Shown: positions 34,310 through 46,003, numbered from the stretch's first letter. The stretch is DNA of 64,000 bases from Deltaproteobacteria bacterium (GCA_021780225.1 JAJXZF010000023.1:1-64000), one strand, 5' to 3'. Numbers and translations are program-made. Notes: generated by a model not told the origin, from the sequence alone.

Positions 34310-34388
34310 ATAAATTCGCGCGCCGCCCGGCGGCGGGCGCATCACCACCCGAGCGCGCCGGAGCGCCGCTCGCGTCTGGAGATTGCCG

Positions 34389-35588
34389 ATGGAAAAAGCT
34401 TTGGCCGGAGTGAAGGTGCTGGACCTGACGCAGTTCGAGGCCGGCACGTCATGCACCGAGATGCTGGCGTGGCTCGGAGCGAACGTGATCAAAGTCGAAC
34501 CGCCGAAGATGGGCGAACAGGGACGCTGGATGCTGACCGAGAAGCCCGGCGTCGATTCCCACTACTTCATGCTGCTGAACGCGAACAAGCGCAGCGTGAC
34601 GCTCAACCTCAAATCGGAGCGCGGCAAGGAAATTTTCCGCGAACTGGTGAAGAAGGTCGATATCCTGACGGAAAACTATTCGCTCGGCGTGCTCGAAGGT
34701 CTGGGGCTCGGCTACGAGCGCCTGCGCGAGATAAATCCGCGCCTGATTTACCTGACGATCAAGGGATTTGGCGCGCACGGCCCGTACAGCAAATACAAAA
34801 GCTTCGACATGATCGCGCAGGCCACGGGCGGCGCGATGTCGATTACCGGATTTCCGGGGTCGCCGCCGCTCAAGCCGGGCCCGACGATCGGCGACACCGG
34901 CACCGGAATCCACGCGGCCTGCGGGGTGCTGGCGGCTTATATCCAGCGCGAGCGCACCGGCAAGGGCCAGCAAGTGGAAGTCGCGATGCAAGAGGCGGTT
35001 TTCAATTTCGTGCGCGTGCCGATGATGGGCACTTATATCACGCACGAGCCGACGCCGCGCGCCGGCAATCGCCTCGCGGCGGGCGCGATCGGAGACATCT
35101 ACAAATGCGCGCCCGGTGGACCGAACGACTACGCTTACATGATATGTACGACGCCCGACATGTTCGAGGCGCTGTGCAAGACGATCGGCCGTCCGGAGGT
35201 GTTCGAGGACCCGCGCTTCCGCGATCGCCGCGAGCGGGCGAAATATATCGAGGAGTTGTCGCGGATCATCGAAGACTGGACGTCGCGGCGCACCAAGCAC
35301 GAAGTGATGCGGCTGATGGGCGAAGCGGGCGTGCCGTGCGGCGCCGTGCTCGACAGCGTCGAATTGCTCAACGATCCGCATATGCGCGAGCGCGGCATGG
35401 TGGTGACGGTGGACCATCCGGCGCGGGGCGCATTCACGATGCCGGGCTGTCCGGTGCGGCTGGAGGATTCGCCCGTCGAGGTCAAGGCCGCGCCGCTGCT
35501 TGGCCAACACAATAACGAGGTCTATGGCGAACTTCTCGGCTATTCCGAGGCCGACTTGGCGGCGTTCAAGGAGCAGGGTATCCTGTAA
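34389..35588 (+). CDS. Class III CoA-transferase (CaiB/BaiF family)
   Basis: This enzyme of 399 residues moves CoA between acids, as in carnitine, formate/oxalate or bile-acid CoA transfer. It has the family start GVKVLDLTQFEAGTSCTEMLAWLGANVIKVEPP (key residues DLTQFEAG and KVEPP) and the N-terminal ENYSLGVLEGLGLGYERL motif. In formyl-CoA transferase the catalytic Asp lies in the motif MQDAV; here it reads MQEAVF with Glu202. Glu at this place occurs in part of the family. The ATG at 34389 is preceded by GGAG at 7 bases. It reads toward the TonB cluster, and the substrate is unknown. Confidence 0.88.
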   Translation: MEKALAGVKVLDLTQFEAGTSCTEMLAWLGANVIKVEPPKMGEQGRWMLTEKPGVDSHYFMLLNANKRSVTLNLKSERGKEIFRELVKKVDILTENYSLGVLEGLGLGYERLREINPRLIYLTIKGFGAHGPYSKYKSFDMIAQATGGAMSITGFPGSPPLKPGPTIGDTGTGIHAACGVLAAYIQRERTGKGQQVEVAMQEAVFNFVRVPMMGTYITHEPTPRAGNRLAAGAIGDIYKCAPGGPNDYAYMICTTPDMFEALCKTIGRPEVFEDPRFRDRRERAKYIEELSRIIEDWTSRRTKHEVMRLMGEAGVPCGAVLDSVELLNDPHMRERGMVVTVDHPARGAFTMPGCPVRLEDSPVEVKAAPLLGQHNNEVYGELLGYSEADLAAFKEQGIL

Positions 35589-35616
35589 CGCAACCGGGCG
35601 CCGTTCGACGCGGAGT

Positions 35617-35988
35617 ATGCGGACGGCGCCCGCCGCGAATCCCGTGACCAGCGCCAGACCATCCATGGAATGCGCCAAACGGCGGCGAAGGGCGTGCGTG
35701 CTGCTGATGGCGTTCGCGCTGGCGTTCGCGCAGATGGTGGCGGCGGGGCATTTCCATCGCGGCGATTCGACCAGGCGCGTCAGCGCTCCGGCGCAGGTCG
35801 CCCTGGACTCGTCGGCGTGTCCGCTATGCGCTTTCGCGTGCCATTCGCAGGTCAAACCGGCCGTCGCGCCCACGATAGATCGTTCCGTTTTGACGGCCCG
35901 GCTGACGACGGCCGTAACGATTCAGCGCGTATTCGGCGCGCCGTTTTCCGCATGGCGTACCCGCGCCCCTCCCGCAATCCTTCTCTAA
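35617..35988 (+). CDS. Small exported Cys/His protein (DUF2946-like) ahead of the TonB receptor
   Basis: This predicted protein has 123 residues. Basic residues (KRRRR) precede a hydrophobic segment (ACVLLMAFALAFAQMVAAG). A short mature part contains GHFH and the cluster CPLCAFACH, and it ends with a RAPP motif. The pattern of a His pair, CPxC and a C-terminal RxPP resembles DUF2946-type proteins, which are often next to TonB receptors and linked to copper. This is a resemblance by eye. The start could also be the ATG at 35665. It lies 255 bp before the TonB-dependent receptor on the same strand, with a strong hairpin in between. Confidence 0.55.
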   Translation: MRTAPAANPVTSARPSMECAKRRRRACVLLMAFALAFAQMVAAGHFHRGDSTRRVSAPAQVALDSSACPLCAFACHSQVKPAVAPTIDRSVLTARLTTAVTIQRVFGAPFSAWRTRAPPAILL

Positions 35989-36017
35989 TCGCCGTTCGAT
36001 AACATTTTAATTTTCCC

Positions 36018-36049
36018 ATCCCGCACGCGGTCGCAGCCGCGTGCGGGAT
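36018..36049. terminator. Perfect 13-bp hairpin between the small Cys/His gene and the TonB receptor
   Basis: Arms ATCCCGCACGCGG and CCGCGTGCGGGAT are fully complementary around a 6-base loop (TCGCAG). The hairpin lies 30 bp after the stop of the small gene. There is no T-run after it, so it may be a weak terminator, an RNA-stability element or an attenuator that lowers expression of the receptor relative to the small gene. Confidence 0.5.
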
Positions 36050-36243
36050 AGCGCGTCGCCGAATTGGTTCCGCGGCGATCGCGGCTGGCAAAGGCGGCGT
36101 CTCATCCGGATGTTCGCGGAGATGACCGTATCGATCTCGACGGACCCGTCGAGCGGCCAAACGGGAAGCGTCCGAAGGCGTGCAGGCATTCGCACGCGGA
36201 ATCTGATTCACATGCGGCGTCGATTCGGGACGAGCGGTTCGTG

Positions 36244-38643
36244 ATGCGGAGAAGGAAGAAATTCCAGTTGCTTTTAGTATTGCCGGCGTTGGCGATCGCG
36301 ATGCGCGCCGGATGCGCGTATGCGGGCGGAGCCGCGGCCGCACGGTCCGCCGCGCGGAAGCTTCATGGCGCGGTCAAGGACGCCCTGAACCGGCCCGTGC
36401 CCGGAGTCGAGCTGTCGCTCGAAAACAGCAACGGGCAGGTAGTAAAACGCGCGGCCACTGACGCCAAAGGAATTTTCGAGATAACCGAGCCTCCGCCCGG
36501 ACTATATCTGTTGATCGCCAAAAGCCCGAAATTTTCGGTCGCGAGCAAACTCGTTGCGATCGCGCCCAACGGGAAAATCGCGCCAATCACGCTCACCATG
36601 AAATCGACCGGCCCGCTTACGGTGGCGGTTTCGGCGCATCGGTTTAGAGCAACGCCAAACCGGCTCTCCGCGTCCGGCAACAGCGCCTACACGATGACCA
36701 GCAGGAATATTGCGGCGCTGCCCGCGGGCGCCAACACCTCCATCAGCAACGTGCTGACACAAATGCCCGGCGTGACGCAGGACGAAAACGGCCAGGTTCA
36801 CGTGCGGGGCGCGCATGCGGATCTGCAATGGCGCGTGAACGGAGTGATGCTTCCGCTCGACAGTTTCAGCGGATTCGGCCAGGTGCTTTCGTCGTATTCG
36901 GTCCGCAACTTCAGCCTCGTGGACGGCGCGCTGCCCGCCGAATACGGCTACCGCGACGCCGGCATTCTGGATCTTCAAACCAAAGACGGTTGCGTCAATC
37001 CGGGCGGACATCTCGAATTTTACGGCGGACAGCGCGAAACCGTTCAGCCGAGCTTCGAGTATGGCGGCTGCAAGGGAAATTTCAGCTTTTACACCACCGG
37101 CTTCTATCTCCACGACAACATCGGCCTGAGTTCCGCGACGCCGGGGGCGACGCCGATCCACGACCTGACCGACCAGGGCCAGTGGTTCGGCTATTTCTCA
37201 TATTTTCTCAATCCAACGACGCGGCTCTCCTTCACTTCCGGCGTATCGGTCGCCGACAACCAGTTCCCGACCTATCCGGGCCAAATTCCGCTGTACAAGC
37301 TCGCCGGCGCGAATCCGCTCGCCTATCCCTCGGCGAATCTGAACGAAAATCTGTCGCAACGATATTACTTCGGAATTCTCGCACTGCAGGGCGCCGTCGG
37401 CGCTGATTTCAACTATCAGATCGCATACACCGCGAAGTACAACACGGTTCAATTCAATCCGGATCCGATCGGCGATCTGATTTATCAGGGCGTCGCCTCG
37501 CGGGTCTTCCACAGCGAATTCGCGAATTCGCTGCAAGGCGATGCGACCTATCATCTCGGGAAATCGCACACGATAGGCGCCGGCTTCTACGCGGGCGAAT
37601 ACGGCGAAACGATCGACGACACGTCGCTGACGTTTCCCGCGGCTCCCGACGGCAAGCAAACCAGCGATTCTCCGATCTCAGTCATCGACAACACGAACGG
37701 CGTCGCCTGGCTCGCCGGATTTTATCTGCAGGACCACTGGCGTCTGACGGAAAAGCTGAGCCTCAATTACGGCGCGCGCTGGGATCAGATGGCCGGTTTC
37801 ATCGGCTCGGCGAATCAGCTCAGTCCTCGCGCGAATCTGGTTTACAACCCGATCAAGCGCTTGACGCTGCATGCCGGCGTGTCGCGGTATTTTCAAACCC
37901 CTTCGTTTTATTCGATTTCGCCGCGCAGCTTCAGCGTCTTCAAAGGCACCACCGCGGCCGTGCCGCCCGGCAATCCGACGCCGAACCCCGAACGAGACTG
38001 GTATTTCGACGCCGGCGCAAGAATCACGGATCTGCTACCCGGTCTCACCCTAGGCGAAGACGCTTATTACGAATACGCCCATCAGGTTCTCGATTTCGGG
38101 CAGTTTGGCTTCGTGCCGATCTTCGCGCCGTTCAACTACCGCACCGGGCGAATCTACGGCGCGGAGACGACCGCGGCCTATCAATTGATGAAATCGCTCT
38201 CGTTCGGCGCGAATTTTTCCTACTCCGTCGCTCAGGGCAGGGACGTTACGACGGGACAATTCAACTTCACGCCGGCGGAACTGGCATACGCCGCGGGTCA
38301 TTACCTCTATCTTGACCATCAACAATTTTTCACCGTTTCAAGTTGGGCCGCCTACGATTGGCGGCAATGGACGTTCAGCGCAAGCTGCGATTACGGCAGC
38401 GGATTGCGGGCCGGATTCGCCAATACGCTTGAAGTTCCGGCGAATTGGCAACTCGACCTCGGCGCCGGGCGCAGCTTCGACGTCACGCGGCTGGGCCGGG
38501 TGACCTCGCGGGTCACCCTGATTAACGCGTTCGATCGCACCAACATTATGCGCGAAGGCACAGGCATAGGCGTTTTTGTTCCCGCATACGGCCCCCGGCG
38601 CGCGGTGTACGGATCGGTTTCGGTTCCATTGCCGGCTCTTTAG
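36244..38643 (+). CDS. TonB-dependent outer-membrane receptor
   Basis: This outer-membrane importer has 799 residues. A signal peptide (RRRKKFQLLLVLPALAIAMR) is followed by a carboxypeptidase-regulatory-like domain (about residues 38-120; LHGAVKDALNRPVPGVELSL). The plug domain (about 140-250) has NVLTQMPGVTQDENGQVHVRG, and a beta-barrel follows with many aromatic strand ends. The C-terminus ends in Leu instead of the usual Phe or Trp. The ATG at 36244 is chosen for the signal peptide; the frame is open further upstream without recognisable content. It lies 54 bp before exbB. The cargo is unknown; the neighbouring Cys/His protein and TldDE favour a peptide or a metal complex. Confidence 0.88.
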   Translation: MRRRKKFQLLLVLPALAIAMRAGCAYAGGAAAARSAARKLHGAVKDALNRPVPGVELSLENSNGQVVKRAATDAKGIFEITEPPPGLYLLIAKSPKFSVASKLVAIAPNGKIAPITLTMKSTGPLTVAVSAHRFRATPNRLSASGNSAYTMTSRNIAALPAGANTSISNVLTQMPGVTQDENGQVHVRGAHADLQWRVNGVMLPLDSFSGFGQVLSSYSVRNFSLVDGALPAEYGYRDAGILDLQTKDGCVNPGGHLEFYGGQRETVQPSFEYGGCKGNFSFYTTGFYLHDNIGLSSATPGATPIHDLTDQGQWFGYFSYFLNPTTRLSFTSGVSVADNQFPTYPGQIPLYKLAGANPLAYPSANLNENLSQRYYFGILALQGAVGADFNYQIAYTAKYNTVQFNPDPIGDLIYQGVASRVFHSEFANSLQGDATYHLGKSHTIGAGFYAGEYGETIDDTSLTFPAAPDGKQTSDSPISVIDNTNGVAWLAGFYLQDHWRLTEKLSLNYGARWDQMAGFIGSANQLSPRANLVYNPIKRLTLHAGVSRYFQTPSFYSISPRSFSVFKGTTAAVPPGNPTPNPERDWYFDAGARITDLLPGLTLGEDAYYEYAHQVLDFGQFGFVPIFAPFNYRTGRIYGAETTAAYQLMKSLSFGANFSYSVAQGRDVTTGQFNFTPAELAYAAGHYLYLDHQQFFTVSSWAAYDWRQWTFSASCDYGSGLRAGFANTLEVPANWQLDLGAGRSFDVTRLGRVTSRVTLINAFDRTNIMREGTGIGVFVPAYGPRRAVYGSVSVPLPAL

Positions 38644-38697
38644 CTTCGCGAGGGCGGCGCACCCGGCCTTTGAGAAATTTATACGAGGCGAAAACAA

Positions 38698-39381
38698 ATG
38701 AACGAATTGAAAGGCGCGTGGGAGGCGATCACATACGGCGGGCCGATGGTTTATCCGCTGCTGGCGCTCGGCGTGATCGCGCTCGCCATCATCATCGACC
38801 GCGCCGTCGCTTACGGGCGCTGCCTGCGCTTGCCGGGCGACCTGCTGGCGCTGGTCGAAACCTACGGTTTCGACTGGATGGAGCTGGAACAGCGGCTGGA
38901 CGCGATCGGTCCGCACAACGCCTACGCCCGTTTCTTCAAAACCATCGCCGACAACCGCACGAAGCCGGTTTGGTGGGTAGAATCGCGCGCGGGCGACGAA
39001 GCGGGCGCGATCGAGAAGACGCTGAATCGCGGCCTCTGGATCCTCGAAACCGTCGTCACCGCCGCTCCGCTGCTCGGATTGCTGGGCACGATTACCGGCA
39101 TGATGCAGGCGTTCAAGATTATCGGCACGTCAACGCTCGTGGCGCCGACGCAGGTGACTTCGGGCGTCGCACAGGCGCTGATCGCGACGGCCCTCGGCCT
39201 TCTGATCGCCATCCTCGCGCTGTTCGGTTTCAATTTTTTCGCACGCACCCAGGCGCAGGCGCTGGATCGAATGGAGCGTTTGGGTTCGCGCCTTACCGAT
39301 CATATCCGGCTCGATCAGGAAAATAGCGATTCCGAAAGCGCCCCGGCGCCACTGGCGTTGGCGCGGGAAGCCGCGCGATGA
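38698..39381 (+). CDS. exbB: ExbB/TolQ-type proton channel subunit
   Basis: This inner-membrane protein of 227 residues forms, with ExbD, the proton channel that energises TonB. The first membrane helix is at about residues 15-35 (MVYPLLALGVIALAIIIDRAV, shown here by its core LLALGVIALAII). The typical segment APLLGLLGTITGMMQAF lies at about residues 122-138, and the last helix at about 160-185 (ATALGLLIAILALFGFNFFAR core). A GAGG ribosome site lies 10 bases before the ATG. Its last codons overlap exbD by an ATGA. Confidence 0.92.
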   Translation: MNELKGAWEAITYGGPMVYPLLALGVIALAIIIDRAVAYGRCLRLPGDLLALVETYGFDWMELEQRLDAIGPHNAYARFFKTIADNRTKPVWWVESRAGDEAGAIEKTLNRGLWILETVVTAAPLLGLLGTITGMMQAFKIIGTSTLVAPTQVTSGVAQALIATALGLLIAILALFGFNFFARTQAQALDRMERLGSRLTDHIRLDQENSDSESAPAPLALAREAAR

Positions 39382-39779
39382 AGCTCAAACGATCGCGGGC
39401 CGCGCGGCGCGGGCGAATCGAGATTATTCCCATGATCGACGTGATGTTCTTTCTGCTCGCGACGTTCATGCTCGCGTCGCTCTCGATGCAGACGCTGAAT
39501 TCGCTCAAAGTGAATCTGCCGGAGGGCGCCGACGCTCCGATGAGCCACAAAGAGCCAGTCACGCTCACGGTGACGCGGGACGGTAAAATCCTCATCGACA
39601 AGACCCCCGTCACGCTTGAAACGCTGGCCGCCGCGCTGGCGCCGCGGCTCGTCGCGGGCGACCATGGCGTCGTCGTGAACGCCGACGGCGCCGCGCCGGA
39701 GGGAGTGGTGGTGCGCGCGATGCTGCGGGCGCGCGCGGCGGGGGTCGAGCACTTCACCATCGCGGTCAGGCGCGAATGA
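39378..39779 (+). CDS. exbD: ExbD/TolR-type proton channel subunit
   Basis: This protein of 133 residues has one N-terminal membrane helix and a periplasmic domain. The essential proton-carrying aspartate is Asp21 in IPMIDVMFFLLATFM. The periplasmic part has the usual small alpha/beta form (VTLTVTRDGKILID). Its start overlaps exbB and its stop overlaps tonB, each by ATGA, so the three subunits are translationally coupled. Confidence 0.92.
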   Translation: MKLKRSRAARRGRIEIIPMIDVMFFLLATFMLASLSMQTLNSLKVNLPEGADAPMSHKEPVTLTVTRDGKILIDKTPVTLETLAAALAPRLVAGDHGVVVNADGAAPEGVVVRAMLRARAAGVEHFTIAVRRE

Positions 39780-40498
39780 CGAGTTTGACGAAAACTTCCG
39801 CCGGGCCGGAACTCGACGATCAACGGTGGCGGCTGCTCTGGATTGTGCCGCTGTCGCTCGCGCTTTGGTTCGCAATCCTTGAAGGTTTCGCGCGCGTGCT
39901 CGAACAAACTACTCCGCCGCCGACTGAATCGACGCCGGTAGAGGCGCAAATCGTCGAGCTTCCGCCGCAGGCGAACCCGTCCGGCGCGACCGCTCATCCG
40001 GCTGCCGCCGCGCCGCCGCGTCCGCTAGAAAAGCCCAAGCCCGTCGTTCGTCATCATCCGATGCCGCGGCATCACGAGGCGGTTCGTCCGCCATCGCCCT
40101 CCGGAACGGCCAAGCCGGCCGAGCGTCCTCATGAAGCGTCGCCGCCTGCGAGTCCAGCGACCGCGGGCGGACCGCCAACCTCGCATGGTTCCGCGGCTCC
40201 GGCCGGGAGCGGAGTGAAATTCGGCGGCGGCGTATCCGGCGCGCGCGCCGTCTATGCGCCGACGCCGGCCATCCCCGACGACCTCCGCGACCAGCCGATC
40301 GACACCGTCGCGATCGCGCATTTTCTGGTCAGGGCCGACGGAACCGATGTCGTGCTACTCTCGCAACCAACCTCGCTTCCCGAGTTGAACCGGGTGTTGA
40401 TTGACACGCTCAAACAATGGCGATTCTTCCCCGCAGTGCGCAATGGCGTTGCGATCGACTCCGAATTTGACGTACGCATTCCCATAACCGTCCAATGA
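39776..40498 (+). CDS. tonB: Energy transducer TonB
   Basis: This protein of 240 residues couples the ExbBD proton channel to the outer-membrane receptor. It has one N-terminal membrane helix (about residues 20-40, LLWIVPLSLALWFAILEGFA core) and a long Pro-, Ala- and His-rich spacer (about residues 45-150; RHHPMPRHHEAVRPP). The compact C-terminal TonB domain (about 160-240) contains VAIAHFLVRADGT and LIDTLKQWRFFPAVRNG. Start and stop both use ATGA overlaps, the latter with tldD, so TonB is coupled to the protease gene downstream. Confidence 0.91.
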   Translation: MTSLTKTSAGPELDDQRWRLLWIVPLSLALWFAILEGFARVLEQTTPPPTESTPVEAQIVELPPQANPSGATAHPAAAAPPRPLEKPKPVVRHHPMPRHHEAVRPPSPSGTAKPAERPHEASPPASPATAGGPPTSHGSAAPAGSGVKFGGGVSGARAVYAPTPAIPDDLRDQPIDTVAIAHFLVRADGTDVVLLSQPTSLPELNRVLIDTLKQWRFFPAVRNGVAIDSEFDVRIPITVQ

Positions 40499-42102
40499 GC
40501 GCAACCAGACCTCGAAGAAGCCGGGCTTCCGATGGCGTTTTCGGCGCGGTCGAGTTCCTGCGCGAAGCCGCCGAGCCGATGCTGCGCCGCTTCGTGCGGA
40601 GCCATCGCGGCGCCACGTATGCGGAGATGCGGTTCGAAGCTTCGTTCACTCGAACCGCGTCCGCGGTCGACGGCGAAGCGCGCGATGCGTTCGAGAGCGG
40701 AAATGCGGCGCTGGGCGTTCGCGTGCGATACGCCATGGCTGACGGCGCCGCGGGCGAAGGCTTCACGGGCGTCGAGGTTGGAAGAATCGCGCTCAACCGC
40801 ACGAAGCTTTCCGCGGCGATCGATAGCGCGCTCGCCGGCGCTTTCGAGCGCGCGCGCTGCAACGCGCGCGAAATGGCCGCGCTCGCGCGATCCGTTCCCG
40901 CGGCGGTAATTAAATCGATGGCGCTGTTCGGAGAGGTCGCGCCTTCGACCGAACGCGCCGAAATTTCCGCAACCTGCCGGCGCGATCCGCGCACCCTCAA
41001 CCCGTCGGAACTGGGCCGCGTCTGCCGCGAGGCGTCGGCGGAAATCGCCGCGCTCGGCTCCGAAATCACGTACAACGCGGTTGCCGCGCTCAGCGAATTG
41101 CGCCATGAGATTTTTATCAACACGGCCGGCGCGAATATTTCGCAAGCCTTCGCGTTCTCGCAGGGCGATTGCTACGTCGTCGCCGCGGCCGACGGCGGTT
41201 ATCAGGAAAGCTACGACACGATTGGCCAGCAGCGCGGCTTCGAGTGTCTTGCCGACGATTGGCGCGACGAATTGACGCCCAATCCGAGCCTTCATCGCTT
41301 CGCCGTCGAACTCGGCCGCGAAACGCGCGAGGTCGCCGCGGCGCCTGCTTTAAAGCCGCCCGACCGCGAGGTCGTGGTCGTCACCGACCCGCACTTCAAC
41401 GCGCTGATCGCCCACGAAATCATCGGCCATCCGTGCGAAGCCGACCGCGCGCTGAAGATGGAGGCCGCCTACGCGGGACGGAGCTGGTTCCTCGGCTCAT
41501 TGGAACACAACGAAATCGGCCGGCCGGTCGGTTCGCCCCTCCTCTGGACCTGCTCCGACCCGACCCTCAACGGCTACGGGCACTATCTATTCGATCATGA
41601 AGGCACGCCCGGCCGCCGCGTCACGCATATCGAAGGAGGAGTGTTTCGGGGCTTTCTGAATTCGCGCGCCACCGCCGCGATTCTCGGCGTCGAGCCGAAC
41701 GGCTCGGCGCGCGCGAGCGAGGCCTGGCACGCGCCGCTGATCCGGATGTCCAACACCTTCTTCATGCCGGGCGAGAGCGATCCGCGGAAAATTATTTCGG
41801 AGGTCGAACACGGCTACTACGTGTGCGGCCATCTGGTCCCGTCGATTGCGGAGTCGCGGGAAAATTTCCGCATCTCGGCGCGCCGCGTTTTCGAAATCGA
41901 ACACGGACGGATCGGCAGGCTGTTTCGTTCCGGATCGGTTATCGCCGATTCGAAGAGTTTTTTCCGTCAGATCGACGCGGTCGGGAACGATTTGCGCCTG
42001 GTCGCGATACCAAACTGCGGCAAGGGCCAGCCGATGCAGGTGAAGCGGATGTCGAACGGCGGGCCGACGCTGCGCTCGCGCGCGCGGCTCGGAGGCGGAT
42101 GA
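40495..42102 (+). CDS. tldD: TldD-type metalloprotease subunit
   Basis: This is the catalytic subunit, 535 residues, of the TldD/TldE protease. The zinc motif HEIIGH is at residues 307-312 (His307, Glu308, His312), followed by the conserved C-terminal glycine-rich strands. TldD/E degrades unfolded peptides and removes leaders from modified peptides such as microcin B17, and it destroys the CcdA antitoxin in E. coli. It is somewhat longer than E. coli TldD (481). The start overlaps tonB by ATGA, which is an unusual neighbourhood. tldE follows after 7 bp. Confidence 0.9.
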   Translation: MSATRPRRSRASDGVFGAVEFLREAAEPMLRRFVRSHRGATYAEMRFEASFTRTASAVDGEARDAFESGNAALGVRVRYAMADGAAGEGFTGVEVGRIALNRTKLSAAIDSALAGAFERARCNAREMAALARSVPAAVIKSMALFGEVAPSTERAEISATCRRDPRTLNPSELGRVCREASAEIAALGSEITYNAVAALSELRHEIFINTAGANISQAFAFSQGDCYVVAAADGGYQESYDTIGQQRGFECLADDWRDELTPNPSLHRFAVELGRETREVAAAPALKPPDREVVVVTDPHFNALIAHEIIGHPCEADRALKMEAAYAGRSWFLGSLEHNEIGRPVGSPLLWTCSDPTLNGYGHYLFDHEGTPGRRVTHIEGGVFRGFLNSRATAAILGVEPNGSARASEAWHAPLIRMSNTFFMPGESDPRKIISEVEHGYYVCGHLVPSIAESRENFRISARRVFEIEHGRIGRLFRSGSVIADSKSFFRQIDAVGNDLRLVAIPNCGKGQPMQVKRMSNGGPTLRSRARLGGG

Positions 42103-42109
42103 TCGAACG

Positions 42110-43645
42110 ATGCGCACGACCGCCGAAATGCGCGGCTTTATCCGCGAAGCGTGCGCGATGCTCGCGCGGCAGCGCGATCTTGCCGGCTTTGAAGTTTACG
42201 CTTCGTCGAGCGAACATCGCGTCGCCCGCATCAATTACACTTCGGATATTCCGGCGCGCGGCGTCGAGGAGTTCAAATCGCTCGACGCCGACGGCTTTGC
42301 CATCCGCATCGCGATGGCGCGCGATCCTCGCGAAACGGGCAACTCAGCCATCGCCGGCGATTTGACGATCGACGCGGCGCGCGACGCGCTCGAACGTGCG
42401 CGCCGCTCGGTCATCGTCGATCCTCATTTTCCGGGACTGCCGCGGGGTCCAAAGCGGCTGCGGACGATTTCGGCAAGCGCCGAAAAAGCGCCGTTGATGG
42501 GCGCGAAAGACGAACTGCTCGCCGCCGCCGCGTGGCGAATCGTTGGCGGCGCGCTCGCCGCGTACCGCGCCAAAATGAAGCTCGCGATGCCGCAGCCGGG
42601 GCTGGTGATCGGCGGCGATCTCTCCCTGATTCGCGATCGAATCGCGATCGGCGGCTCAAATTTCGACGATATCCGCACCGACGAGAGCGCGCGCTTCGCT
42701 TCGTCGGTGACGGCGCTGGTCGAAGCGATCGAAGCCAAGGGAACCGCGACCGCGATGGGCGTTTCGGCTGAGGAGTTGACCGGCGCGGGCGCGCGCCTTG
42801 GGCGCGAAGCGATTATTCGCGCGCTGGCGTTGCGCCACGGCGAGCGTCCGCGGCCGGGGACGTATCGGGTCGTGATGGGGCCGCAGCCGATCGCGGAAAT
42901 TCTCAACTACATGGTCGTGCCGTCGCTGACGGCAGGCGCTTTTCAGGCCGCGAATTCGGCCTATCAAGGCCGGTTCGGAGAGCTTGTGATGGATGAGCGA
43001 ATAAGCCTGGCCGACGATCCCGGCGCGCGCGCCGGCTCGGTCCGCCGGAGAATCACCTGCGAAGGACTGCCCGCGGAGCGGACAGAGATGGTCCGCAACG
43101 GCAGACTGTGCGGTTTGCTCGCGAATACCTACGATGCGCACCGTTTGCTCACCGACGAGCATCGTGCGGAGAAACTCGGCGGAAGCGCGCCGGCGGAATT
43201 GGCGTTTCCGCCGCACAACGCATACCGGATGGGAGAAAGCTCGGCGCGCCGCTTCGACGGCCATCCGGGCGCGACCGCGACCAACCTGTTGATGACGGCC
43301 CGCGCCGGCGTCAGCGAGGCGGAACTCATACGCGCCGTGGGCGACGGAATCTACATCGGCCGCGTCTGGTACACCTATCCCATCAACGGACAGCGCGCGG
43401 GCGATTTCACCTGCACCGTCAGCGGCGATTCATACGTGATTCGCGGCGGACGGCTGGCCGCGCCGCTCGCGCCCAATCATTTCAGAATCAACGCGAATAT
43501 TTCCGAAATATTTTCCAAACCAATCGCGATCGCGCGGCGCGCCCGGCATGCGATGGTTTGGGGATCGCCGGAAGCTTATATCGTTCCGCCGCTGGCGATC
43601 GAGAAACTGATTTTGTCGGCTATCGGCGCGGCCGAATCCGATTGA
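42110..43645 (+). CDS. tldE: TldE (PmbA)-type metalloprotease subunit
   Basis: This is the non-catalytic partner subunit, 511 residues, with the TldD/PmbA fold but without the HExxxH motif. Family-like segments include YTSDIPARGVEEFKSLDADGFAI (key: GVEEFKS), the domain change at EILNYMVVPSLTAGAFQAANSAYQGR and the C-terminal GDFTCTVSGDSYVIRGG. E. coli TldE forms a heterodimer with TldD and helps hold the peptide substrate in the closed chamber. It is the last gene of the receptor-exbB-exbD-tonB-tldD-tldE series and ends only 9 bp from the stop of the convergent MORN-type lipoprotein gene. Confidence 0.9.
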   Translation: MRTTAEMRGFIREACAMLARQRDLAGFEVYASSSEHRVARINYTSDIPARGVEEFKSLDADGFAIRIAMARDPRETGNSAIAGDLTIDAARDALERARRSVIVDPHFPGLPRGPKRLRTISASAEKAPLMGAKDELLAAAAWRIVGGALAAYRAKMKLAMPQPGLVIGGDLSLIRDRIAIGGSNFDDIRTDESARFASSVTALVEAIEAKGTATAMGVSAEELTGAGARLGREAIIRALALRHGERPRPGTYRVVMGPQPIAEILNYMVVPSLTAGAFQAANSAYQGRFGELVMDERISLADDPGARAGSVRRRITCEGLPAERTEMVRNGRLCGLLANTYDAHRLLTDEHRAEKLGGSAPAELAFPPHNAYRMGESSARRFDGHPGATATNLLMTARAGVSEAELIRAVGDGIYIGRVWYTYPINGQRAGDFTCTVSGDSYVIRGGRLAAPLAPNHFRINANISEIFSKPIAIARRARHAMVWGSPEAYIVPPLAIEKLILSAIGAAESD

Positions 43646-43654
43646 CCAATTGCG

Positions 43655-44149
43655 TCATCGCACGCGCCGCCCATCGCGATAAACTTCCCGCCTGCTCGTG
43701 ATTCCGAGCGGATCCCATCGCGTCCACGCGCCGTCGCGCCGGCCGTTGCGATAATTCCCTTCGATCGATTTGACGCCGTTGGCGTACCAGCTCGTATGCG
43801 GCCCATCGCGCACGCCGTTCACGTAGCGATCGATTGACGCGCGCCGGCCGTTCTCGTACCACAAAGTCCATTCGCCCACCTGCACGCCGTCGTGATAGTA
43901 GCCTTCGATCATCCGATCGCCGCCCTCGCCATAGACGACGAAGACGCCGTCTTTGACCGGCTTCCCATTTACTGTCTTCTGGCACCATTGTTCTTCGCCG
44001 CGCGGCGGCGGCGCGCCCATCATGACCGCTCCCGCAGGACAGGCCGGCAGCGCGCCGCTGGCCGTGCGACGACAACTCGCGAGCGCGGCGCAGGCGACGA
44101 CAGCGGCGGCGAAAGCCAAACGCCGCGCCAATTCCAGCGTGCGGCGCAT
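43655..44149 (-). CDS. Lipoprotein with MORN-type (YwqK-like) repeats
   Basis: This is a predicted lipoprotein of 164 residues. The signal peptide ends in a lipobox (VACAALASC), with lipidation at about Cys25. The mature protein consists of short repeats of the form GxWtxWyxNGrrxsxxxYxnGxrdG, clearest at GEWTLWYENGRRASIDRYVNG, GPHTSWYANGVKSIEGNYRNG and GAWTRWD. Such repeats occur in YwqK/toxin-antitoxin-labelled proteins and are mostly of unknown function. The ATG at 44149 is chosen because it gives the proper signal peptide; a frame 54 bases longer exists. Confidence 0.72.
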   Translation of the reverse strand: MRRTLELARRLAFAAAVVACAALASCRRTASGALPACPAGAVMMGAPPPRGEEQWCQKTVNGKPVKDGVFVVYGEGGDRMIEGYYHDGVQVGEWTLWYENGRRASIDRYVNGVRDGPHTSWYANGVKSIEGNYRNGRRDGAWTRWDPLGITSRREVYRDGRRVR

Positions 44150-44221
44150 CGATCGCGTCCGCCGCGCTTCGGAAATGAATAACGAGTTTCGGGAGCCGGA
44201 CAATTAAGCCGTGGAAGTCAA

Positions 44222-44254
44222 CGGGCGGACGGCCTTGATCAAGCCGCCCGCCCG
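44222..44254 (-). terminator. GC-rich hairpin downstream of the ThDP enzyme
   Basis: An imperfect stem of about 15 bp (CGGGCGGACGGC pairs with GCCGCCCGCCCG, one mismatch and one bulge, tip CTTGATCAAG) lies 57 bp after the stop of the minus-strand ThDP enzyme gene. It lacks a run of U after the stem, so it would be a weak or factor-aided terminator. Confidence 0.45.
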
Positions 44255-44311
44255 CTTCGAATCATAATTGCGGAACGCGATATTTCGCCTCGCGCCCCGC
44301 GCTCATCCGCC

Positions 44312-46003
44312 TCAGTTCGACCCGGTCGAGCCGAGCAGGTTGCCGCCGAGCGTCGGATGGCCGACGGTCTTGTCGCCGATAATGTTGACCATCGCCGGCT
44401 TGCCGGAATTGAACGCGCGCTCGAGCGCAGGAACAATCTGATCCGGCTCGGTCACGTACTCGCCGTGGCAGCCCATCTCGGCGAACGACTTGTCGTACCG
44501 GATATCCTGCAGCATGTTGAACGGATCGGTGCGATCCTTCAGCATCGGCATCGACTCGAAGCTCGGTCCCCACGAGCTGTTGTTGTACAGCACGCACACG
44601 ATCGGCAAGTTGTAGCGGGCGGCGGTTTCCATGTCGAAACCACCGATGCCCAATCCGCCGTCGCCCATGACCAGCGCCACTTGTTTGCCCGGCCGCGCGA
44701 GCTGCACGCCGATTCCCATGCCGAATCCGTGACCGACCGGCGCCAGCGGACCGGCGTCGATAATTTGCCCGGGAAATCGCGACGTGAAACCTTGGCTCAT
44801 CCATCCCGACAACGTGAAACTGTCGATAACGACTGTGCAATTCTTGTCGAGCACGGTTACCAGGTCCTTCGTCAACCGCGCCGGATGAACCGGCTTGTTG
44901 CCGTGGACCTTCTTTTCGTTCTCGACCACCTGCCGCTCGAAATTCGCACGAACTTCGCTCAGTTCCTTCAGCCAGCTCGACGACCGGTTCTTGGAGAAAT
45001 CGAGCTTCAGCTCCTTGATCCGGTTGATCATCTGGCGCAGCACCACCTTGGGATCGCCCACCATCGGAATCTCGGCCGGCACCTGCCATCCGATTCGCGA
45101 AGGCGTCGGATCGCACTGGATATACTTGGCCTTGTCGTTCCATGTCGGCGGACGGCCGAAATGCTCGCCGCTCCAGAAGCGGAAGCCCAGCGTCAATACG
45201 ACGTCGGCGCGGCCGGTGAACGGCTTCTTGAACGCGCCGCGAATCGCCAGCGGATGCTCTTCCGATACCGAGCCCTGGCCCGCCCGCCGCGCATAGACCG
45301 GAATTGAAGTCAACTCGGCGAATTCTTTCAGCTCGGGCGCCGCCTGCGACCAGAACAGGCCGTCGCCGCCGGCGATCAGCGGACGCTCCGCCGCGTGCAG
45401 CAACTCCAGCGCCCGATCGATCTTCGCCGGATCGCCCGCCGAACGGATATCGTCGGGCGTGAAACGCTGGCCGCCCGCCCGCTGCCGGTTGTCTTCGTCC
45501 TTGAAATACAAAATGTTTTGCGGAATCTCGATCAGCGATACGCCCTGCGGCGGCGTCAGCGCTTCGCGGAACGCCAGCCGCATGTCGAACTCGATCGTGC
45601 TGAAGTCCGTCACGCGCTTGGTGTACTTCGCAAAGCTCCGCACCACGTCGGAGCCGTAAGCTTCCTGAAACGACCCCTGATGGTCTTCCGTATTCGGATG
45701 CTGTCCGGAGATGCACACCACCGCGCTGTTGGTCATCGCCGCAAGGCACAACCCGGTAATCGCGTTGGTCAGTCCGCAACCCGCCGTGACCATGCATACG
45801 CCCGCCTCGCCGGTCATCCGCGCGTAACCGTCCGCCGCGTATGCCGTCGCCTGCTCATGGCGCATGTGAATCAATTTGATGTCGTGATTGCGCAGCTCCG
45901 CGAGGATCGGGAATAGATGCCCGCCGTTGATCGCGAAACAATATCGCGCGCGATTTTCCTGGATGATGCGTGCGACCAATTCGCCGCCGCCCACTTTTGC
46001 CAT
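44312..46003 (-). CDS. Thiamine diphosphate-dependent enzyme, acetolactate synthase / 2-hydroxyacyl-CoA lyase-like
   Basis: This ThDP enzyme of 563 residues probably acts on a 2-keto or 2-hydroxyacyl compound. The catalytic Glu50 lies in MRHEQATAYAADGYAR. The central regulatory-type domain carries GGDGLFWS and the acyl-CoA-lyase-like segment. The C-terminal ThDP motif runs from GDGGLGIGGFDMETAARY to NN, about 30 residues later (VLYNNSSWG). The overall order fits acetolactate synthase, oxalyl-CoA decarboxylase and 2-hydroxyacyl-CoA lyase, and the sequence alone does not decide between them. The start at MAKVGGGELV is supported by a nearby AGGAG-like site. It is divergent from the Omp85 gene. 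Confidence 0.85.
   Translation of the reverse strand: MAKVGGGELVARIIQENRARYCFAINGGHLFPILAELRNHDIKLIHMRHEQATAYAADGYARMTGEAGVCMVTAGCGLTNAITGLCLAAMTNSAVVCISGQHPNTEDHQGSFQEAYGSDVVRSFAKYTKRVTDFSTIEFDMRLAFREALTPPQGVSLIEIPQNILYFKDEDNRQRAGGQRFTPDDIRSAGDPAKIDRALELLHAAERPLIAGGDGLFWSQAAPELKEFAELTSIPVYARRAGQGSVSEEHPLAIRGAFKKPFTGRADVVLTLGFRFWSGEHFGRPPTWNDKAKYIQCDPTPSRIGWQVPAEIPMVGDPKVVLRQMINRIKELKLDFSKNRSSSWLKELSEVRANFERQVVENEKKVHGNKPVHPARLTKDLVTVLDKNCTVVIDSFTLSGWMSQGFTSRFPGQIIDAGPLAPVGHGFGMGIGVQLARPGKQVALVMGDGGLGIGGFDMETAARYNLPIVCVLYNNSSWGPSFESMPMLKDRTDPFNMLQDIRYDKSFAEMGCHGEYVTEPDQIVPALERAFNSGKPAMVNIIGDKTVGHPTLGGNLLGSTGSN

Follow-up and report, generated by a model that had tools for sequence, protein, structure and literature searches.

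In Bordetella pertussis, a TonB-dependent copper transporter is controlled by CruR, a copper-responsive leader whose hallmarks are a CxxC motif, a stretch of about 45 residues and a RAPP motif near the stop codon (PMC9426467). Arrest of CruR at RAPP has been shown in vitro (PMC12992588). More than 40% of crtA copper-receptor operons are headed by cruR, and some carry exbBD-tonB (PMC12914433). TonB-dependent receptors for zinc also exist, namely ZnuD and ZnuK/ZnuL (PMC4176598). Here, a locus in which a CruR-like leader precedes genes for a TonB-dependent receptor, ExbB-ExbD-TonB and the TldD/TldE protease pair is described from a 64,000-nucleotide stretch of a Deltaproteobacteria bacterium assembly (GCA_021780225.1, JAJXZF010000023.1:1-64000), called the window below, whose nearest named relatives are Candidatus Binataceae metagenome-assembled genomes. 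From its sequence, the locus is judged with moderate confidence to be a CruR-type, metal-controlled uptake operon with a resident TldDE pair at its distal end. In related genomes, the same kind of leader, in the same gap before tldD, heads a ZnuABC-type importer, and cassettes of either kind also lie away from tldDE. The features of the locus are as follows.

34383-35588, + strand: caiB, CoA-transferase family III, formyl-CoA-transferase-like (PF02515, E 2.8e-119)
35665-35988, + strand: CruR-like leader open reading frame (ORF) of 107 amino acids (motif census, alignments, profile search)
36017-36052, + strand: strong hairpin between the leader and receptor genes (-29.1 kcal/mol)
36244-38643 (longest ORF from 36064), + strand: TonB-dependent receptor (PF00593, E 2e-23; CarboxypepD_reg, PF13620; weak Plug)
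38698-39381, + strand: exbB (PF01618, E 4.2e-26)
39378-39779, + strand: exbD (PF02472, E 9e-25)
39776-40498, + strand: tonB (TIGR01352, E 2.4e-4, below cut-off; place within the cassette)
40495-42102, + strand: divergent tldD (PF19289, E 1e-38; alignment with E. coli TldD, E 6.5e-28)
42110-43645, + strand: divergent tldE (PF19289, E 1.6e-31; match to 1vpb, E 7.9e-8)

The leader ORF heads the cassette; caiB, also on the + strand, lies 76 bp before it. It consists of a signal-like N-terminus (basic then hydrophobic, as judged by eye), HFH, CPLC, 44 residues, RAPP, four residues and the stop codon. In alignments of its relatives, the constant features are a hydrophobic N-terminus, HxH, CxxC, usually a later histidine, and RAPP near the stop; the cysteine pair is invariant and the sequence is poorly conserved elsewhere. 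A motif census, in which 9725 ORFs were scanned, yielded 23 strict CxxC-RAPP cases, all of which head receptor or Znu cassettes, with a CxxC-RAPP distance of 44 residues in 22 and 43 in one. The metal connection that a first-pass annotation of this DNA had drawn from a small Cys/His protein is borne out by these CruR hallmarks. The small ORF was also considered as a peptide precursor, but its motifs resemble those of arrest peptides and no modifying enzyme was seen next to it, so this reading was rejected.

The family sample comprised 35 Binataceae genomes from 17 genera (genomes and loci are cited by G and L numbers where needed). A profile search found the leader in 33 of them, generally in one copy each; G008 has two, the match in G019 is weak, and only G006 and G011, which are the least complete genomes of the sample, are without a match. 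At nearly all loci read the leader heads a receptor or Znu cassette, while G008 and G024 each have one locus where exbB follows it directly and the receptor is absent. The gap behind the leader is mostly about 80-260 nucleotides, and holds a hairpin whose stability modestly exceeds that of shuffled sequence (mean z -1.6 for 25 loci, with 20 shuffles per locus; window z -5.8). A phylum-wide leader search gave few matches and was too broad for use.

All six genes from receptor to tldE are on the + strand, at the positions already given in the first-pass annotation. ATGA overlaps were read in the sequence at 39378 (exbB/exbD), 39776 (exbD/tonB) and 40495 (tonB/tldD), and tldE starts 7 bp after tldD. 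The gene assignments are supported by domain searches, in which ExbB (PF01618) and ExbD (PF02472) were above cut-off and the TonB C-terminal domain (TIGR01352) scored 21.4 bits, below the cut-off of 27.1. The proposal of a dedicated ExbBD-TonB set physically coupled to tldDE is supported. Because tonB overlaps tldD, tldDE is probably on the cassette transcript. For the receptor, 36244 is a likelier start than 36064, the first possible one. A scan of 35500-44300 for sigma-70-like promoters found none, with 1.6 expected by chance, a result of little weight for this organism; Rfam and tRNA scans of the window gave no matches.

Receptor homologues stand behind CruR-like leaders across Binataceae. 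The OprC copper-receptor model (TIGR01778) was not among the NCBIfam matches at E<=1e-3 for the window receptor, and the AlphaFold model of this receptor has a mean pLDDT (predicted local distance difference test) of 42. In G021 and G032, a leader-receptor pair without exbBD is followed by a LIV-type ATP-binding cassette (ABC) importer (L084 11678-16506; L085 2500-7388), which by eye resembles urea/amide systems. In G014, a gene for a Fur-family regulator (L054 15125-15637; PF01475, E 8.9e-11) is divergent from the leader-receptor cassette.

The recurring core in Binataceae is caiB-tldD-tldE. In ten genomes (G007, G010, G013, G022, G025, G026, G028, G030, G031 and G034), caiB and tldD are spaced by about 100 bp or less, and in six (G000, G001, G003, G004, G012 and G014) receptor-exbB-exbD-tonB lies between them. 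The two halves of the caiB-cassette-tldD arrangement are found on two contigs in G015, and contigs broken 5' of caiB in G006, G011 and G027 agree with a cassette-occupied gap. G016 has a receptor in the gap with exbBD-tonB absent, and the caiB-leader-receptor contig of G029 stops short of tldD. In other Binataceae, the receptor cassette is located away from tldDE. Altogether the gap is occupied in seven of the 17 sampled genera, including the three genomes with Znu genes described below, and the receptor cassette is found there in six. Mapped on the TldD tree, the presence of the TonB cassette in the gap requires about six changes, four of which are forced by well-supported branches, and sister species differ in occupancy (G012/G026, G015/G028 and G018/G030). 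The idea that the gap cassettes are a separately acquired lineage was set aside, as the ExbB-ExbD tree does not clearly separate them from the others. The gene order receptor-exbB-exbD-tonB-tldD-tldE recurs beyond this genome in other Binataceae genera, more than by chance, yet not throughout the family, and the place next to tldDE is one setting among several in which the metal-uptake cassette occurs.

Flanking synteny around tldDE is also retained in many Binataceae, being formed by caiB (34383-35588) and by a thiamine pyrophosphate enzyme like acetolactate synthase or oxalyl-CoA decarboxylase (44312-46003, - strand). A gene for a MORN_2-repeat protein (43655-44203, - strand), convergent with tldE, is likewise retained in many relatives.

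In G002, G005 and G018, this gap is filled by a leader of the same kind, a porin-like protein, ZnuA, ZnuC and ZnuB, followed by tldD. The domains of this Znu cassette are above cut-off (ZnuA PF01297, E 2.2e-55; ABC ATPase PF00005; ABC-3 permease PF00950, E 7.8e-49), and ZnuA is confined to these three genomes among the 35. No receptor of the same family as the window receptor was found in G002 and G005; G018 has one elsewhere. Binataceae ZnuA keeps two ligand histidines, while the expected first ligand histidine aligns with an aspartate, so that the metal is uncertain even for this protein. In G312 (L099/L219, 1-3815), a shortened cassette 5' of tldD consists of the leader, fused porin/ZnuC pieces and ZnuB; it is like a decaying copy, and an assembly error is possible. 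In a wider sample, G307 has the leader-porin-Znu cassette with tldDE absent within the 15 kb read, and G311 has ZnuA with the leader match absent.

Outside Binataceae, leader-porin-ZnuA-ZnuC-ZnuB was found in G036, G042, G046, G047, G054, G313, G315, G328 and G331, and probably in G327. These loci represent five to six families of the class, and tldDE is absent from the stretches read. In another family (f6), a similar leader lies 5' of genes that include a distant tonB, plus exbB or exbD where the contig reaches. Beside the porin-ZnuABC operon of G327 (L234 3544-5603) there are three ORFs with a CxxC (or CxxxC)-44/45-RAPP/RGPP pattern, which are either several leaders or chance matches.

The transporter behind the leader is either a TonB system or a porin with ZnuABC, and metal uptake is the simplest account of both. 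Metal uptake is preferred to peptide import because relatives bear a zinc-type importer at the same place. By analogy with CruR, the small, putatively exported leader (35665-35988) would be translated first. The ribosome would stall at its C-terminal RAPP, metal would be sensed through its CxxC and histidine residues, and the downstream genes would be expressed when metal is scarce. The receptor would then carry metal, probably chelated, across the outer membrane, energized by its own ExbB-ExbD-TonB. The tldDE genes would be transcribed with the cassette as a resident tail pair, and would not process the imported ligand.

The precedent of CruR, the copC-copD locus of G009 and the absence of an inner-membrane importer from the TonB cassette favour copper as the metal; the interchange with ZnuABC favours zinc or manganese. 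The copper hint in G009 (L192 6024-7309) is a copC gene and a copD-like gene that precede the leader-receptor cassette in the same orientation; among 29 genomes with CopC, it adjoins the cassette only here. The leader regions share no AT-rich palindrome that would resemble a Zur box. Copper monooxygenase (PF02461) was tried as a correlate of cassette type and rejected, as no tracking was found.

In the window, tldD and tldE form a second, divergent pair, usually partnered by caiB in Binataceae; a canonical tldDE pair is encoded elsewhere in the same genome. The TldD metal site is retained as HEIIGH (307-312) and C508, and H307, E308, H312 and C508 are invariant and aligned with E. coli TldD. 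Of its Pfam domains, the third is strong, the second is just under cut-off and the first is not recognised. The subfamily is also found in Rokubacteria, Chloroflexi, Nitrospirota, Methylomirabilota and relatives of Brocadia. When 40 tldD neighbourhoods, three of them from Binataceae, were clustered, a tldE family member was present in 38, normally just 3' of tldD, and no receptor or ExbBD family was among the recurring families. In nine neighbourhoods from Rokubacteria (e.g. L112 240-1448 and L113 8051-9253), the gene 5' of tldD looks by eye like moeA (molybdopterin).

TldDE trims the leaders of modified peptides. This known activity, together with the physical coupling of cassette and tldDE, had led to the suggestion that the receptor imports a peptide, or a peptide-based metal carrier, for trimming by TldDE in the cytosol. 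Such a function now appears highly improbable. A recurrent short gene was indeed found, but it is the CruR-like leader only; neither a precursor nor a modifying enzyme recurs, and the neighbours inspected include no peptide-modifying enzyme. The cassette has no importer for peptides in the inner membrane, the receptor can give way to ZnuABC in the same gap, and receptor and tldDE are separated in many relatives, where tldDE stays by caiB. The earlier interpretation is supported in part, in its gene order and its metal connection. TldDE could instead be a working part of the same metal operon, as a metalloprotease that is produced when metal runs short and that breaks down, in the cytosol, polypeptides that lack or bind metal or else the leader peptide after its release. 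The intact metal site, the ATGA overlap of tonB and tldD and the occupancy of the gap in six to seven of 17 genera by the TonB cassette or ZnuABC would all suit this role, which is nevertheless considered unlikely: many Binataceae have the cassette elsewhere and an empty caiB-tldDE gap, the TldD subfamily occurs in other phyla without such neighbours, and leader-porin-ZnuABC of other families is without tldDE. As cassettes often lack tldDE and tldDE often lacks cassettes, a necessary role is argued against, and TldDE is likelier to be a passenger than a participant.

The product of the small ORF might itself be exported and serve alongside the transporters, binding metal or acting as a chaperone, in keeping with its conserved HxH, CxxC, later histidine and signal-like N-terminus. 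This is very doubtful, since a RAPP close to the C-terminus at a fixed 44-residue spacing, with little else conserved, fits an arrest peptide, and since proteomes avoid RAPP whereas such leaders are enriched in it near their ends (PMC12992588). Several points do weigh against a CruR-type, metal-controlled uptake operon with resident TldDE. The window leader scores 12.7 bits (E 0.22) and the leader of the Znu locus L045 16.2 against DUF2946 (PF11162), whose gathering cut-off is 23.7; because of this score, the leader is said to work like CruR and is not assigned to DUF2946. In G017, no cassette gene was recognised downstream of the leader. Occupancy of the gap in six to seven genera by two kinds of transporter could mean that TldDE matters, and the hints to copper (CruR and one copC-copD locus) conflict with those to zinc (ZnuABC). 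A more tentative possibility is that CruR-type arrest peptides extend beyond copper: in this class they may control a ZnuABC-type importer as a zinc-sensing nascent-chain switch, the TonB system being a replacement for that importer and a TldDE protease having come under control of the switch in part of Binataceae.

With the uptake operon as the preferred account, a speculative peptide-import function gives way to a specific and testable one, and CruR-like leader control would extend to Binataceae and to ZnuABC-type importers. Two unrelated transporters trading places behind one leader, in one gap, provide a handle on the sensed metal, a question that also stands for the non-copper members of the leader family. 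The locus also illustrates that overlapping genes need not share function.

Compared with E. coli TldD/TldE, the window pair shares the third domain, HExxxH and a cysteine aligned with that of the E. coli CGK motif, but belongs to a divergent subfamily with an unrecognised first domain, in a genome that also carries the canonical pair. The likeness to ZnuABC importers is that one of this type fills the same gap in sister species; in contrast to ZnuABC/ZnuD-type systems, the window cassette is without an ABC importer and no Zur box was found. In CutF-CutO of Rhodobacter capsulatus (PMC9973294), an exported sensor ORF likewise combines a Cys motif with a Pro-rich motif at the C-terminus, and a stem-loop precedes the next gene. 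However, CutF uses CxxxC and turns on a multicopper oxidase with copper, whereas the genes here are for uptake. With cruR-crtA(bfrG)-PepSY_TM of B. pertussis (PMC9426467; PMC12914433), the locus shares the small, here putatively exported CxxC...RAPP ORF, the intergenic gap and the TonB-dependent receptor; it differs in having no PepSY_TM gene, in the tldDE genes at its 3' end and in a leader Pfam match below cut-off. The window receptor bears an N-terminal CarboxypepD_reg domain, and its family was compared with CrtA by residue pattern. Neither has conserved Cys or Met, and five His are conserved in the 24 receptors compared here versus two in CrtA. The main texts of the papers on CruR, CutF and RAPP do not mention zinc or ABC transporters. 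As far as checked against these texts, three observations are apparently new: a CruR-like leader in Binataceae, the placement of such a leader upstream of ZnuABC genes, and two transporters that replace each other in a single gap 5' of tldDE.

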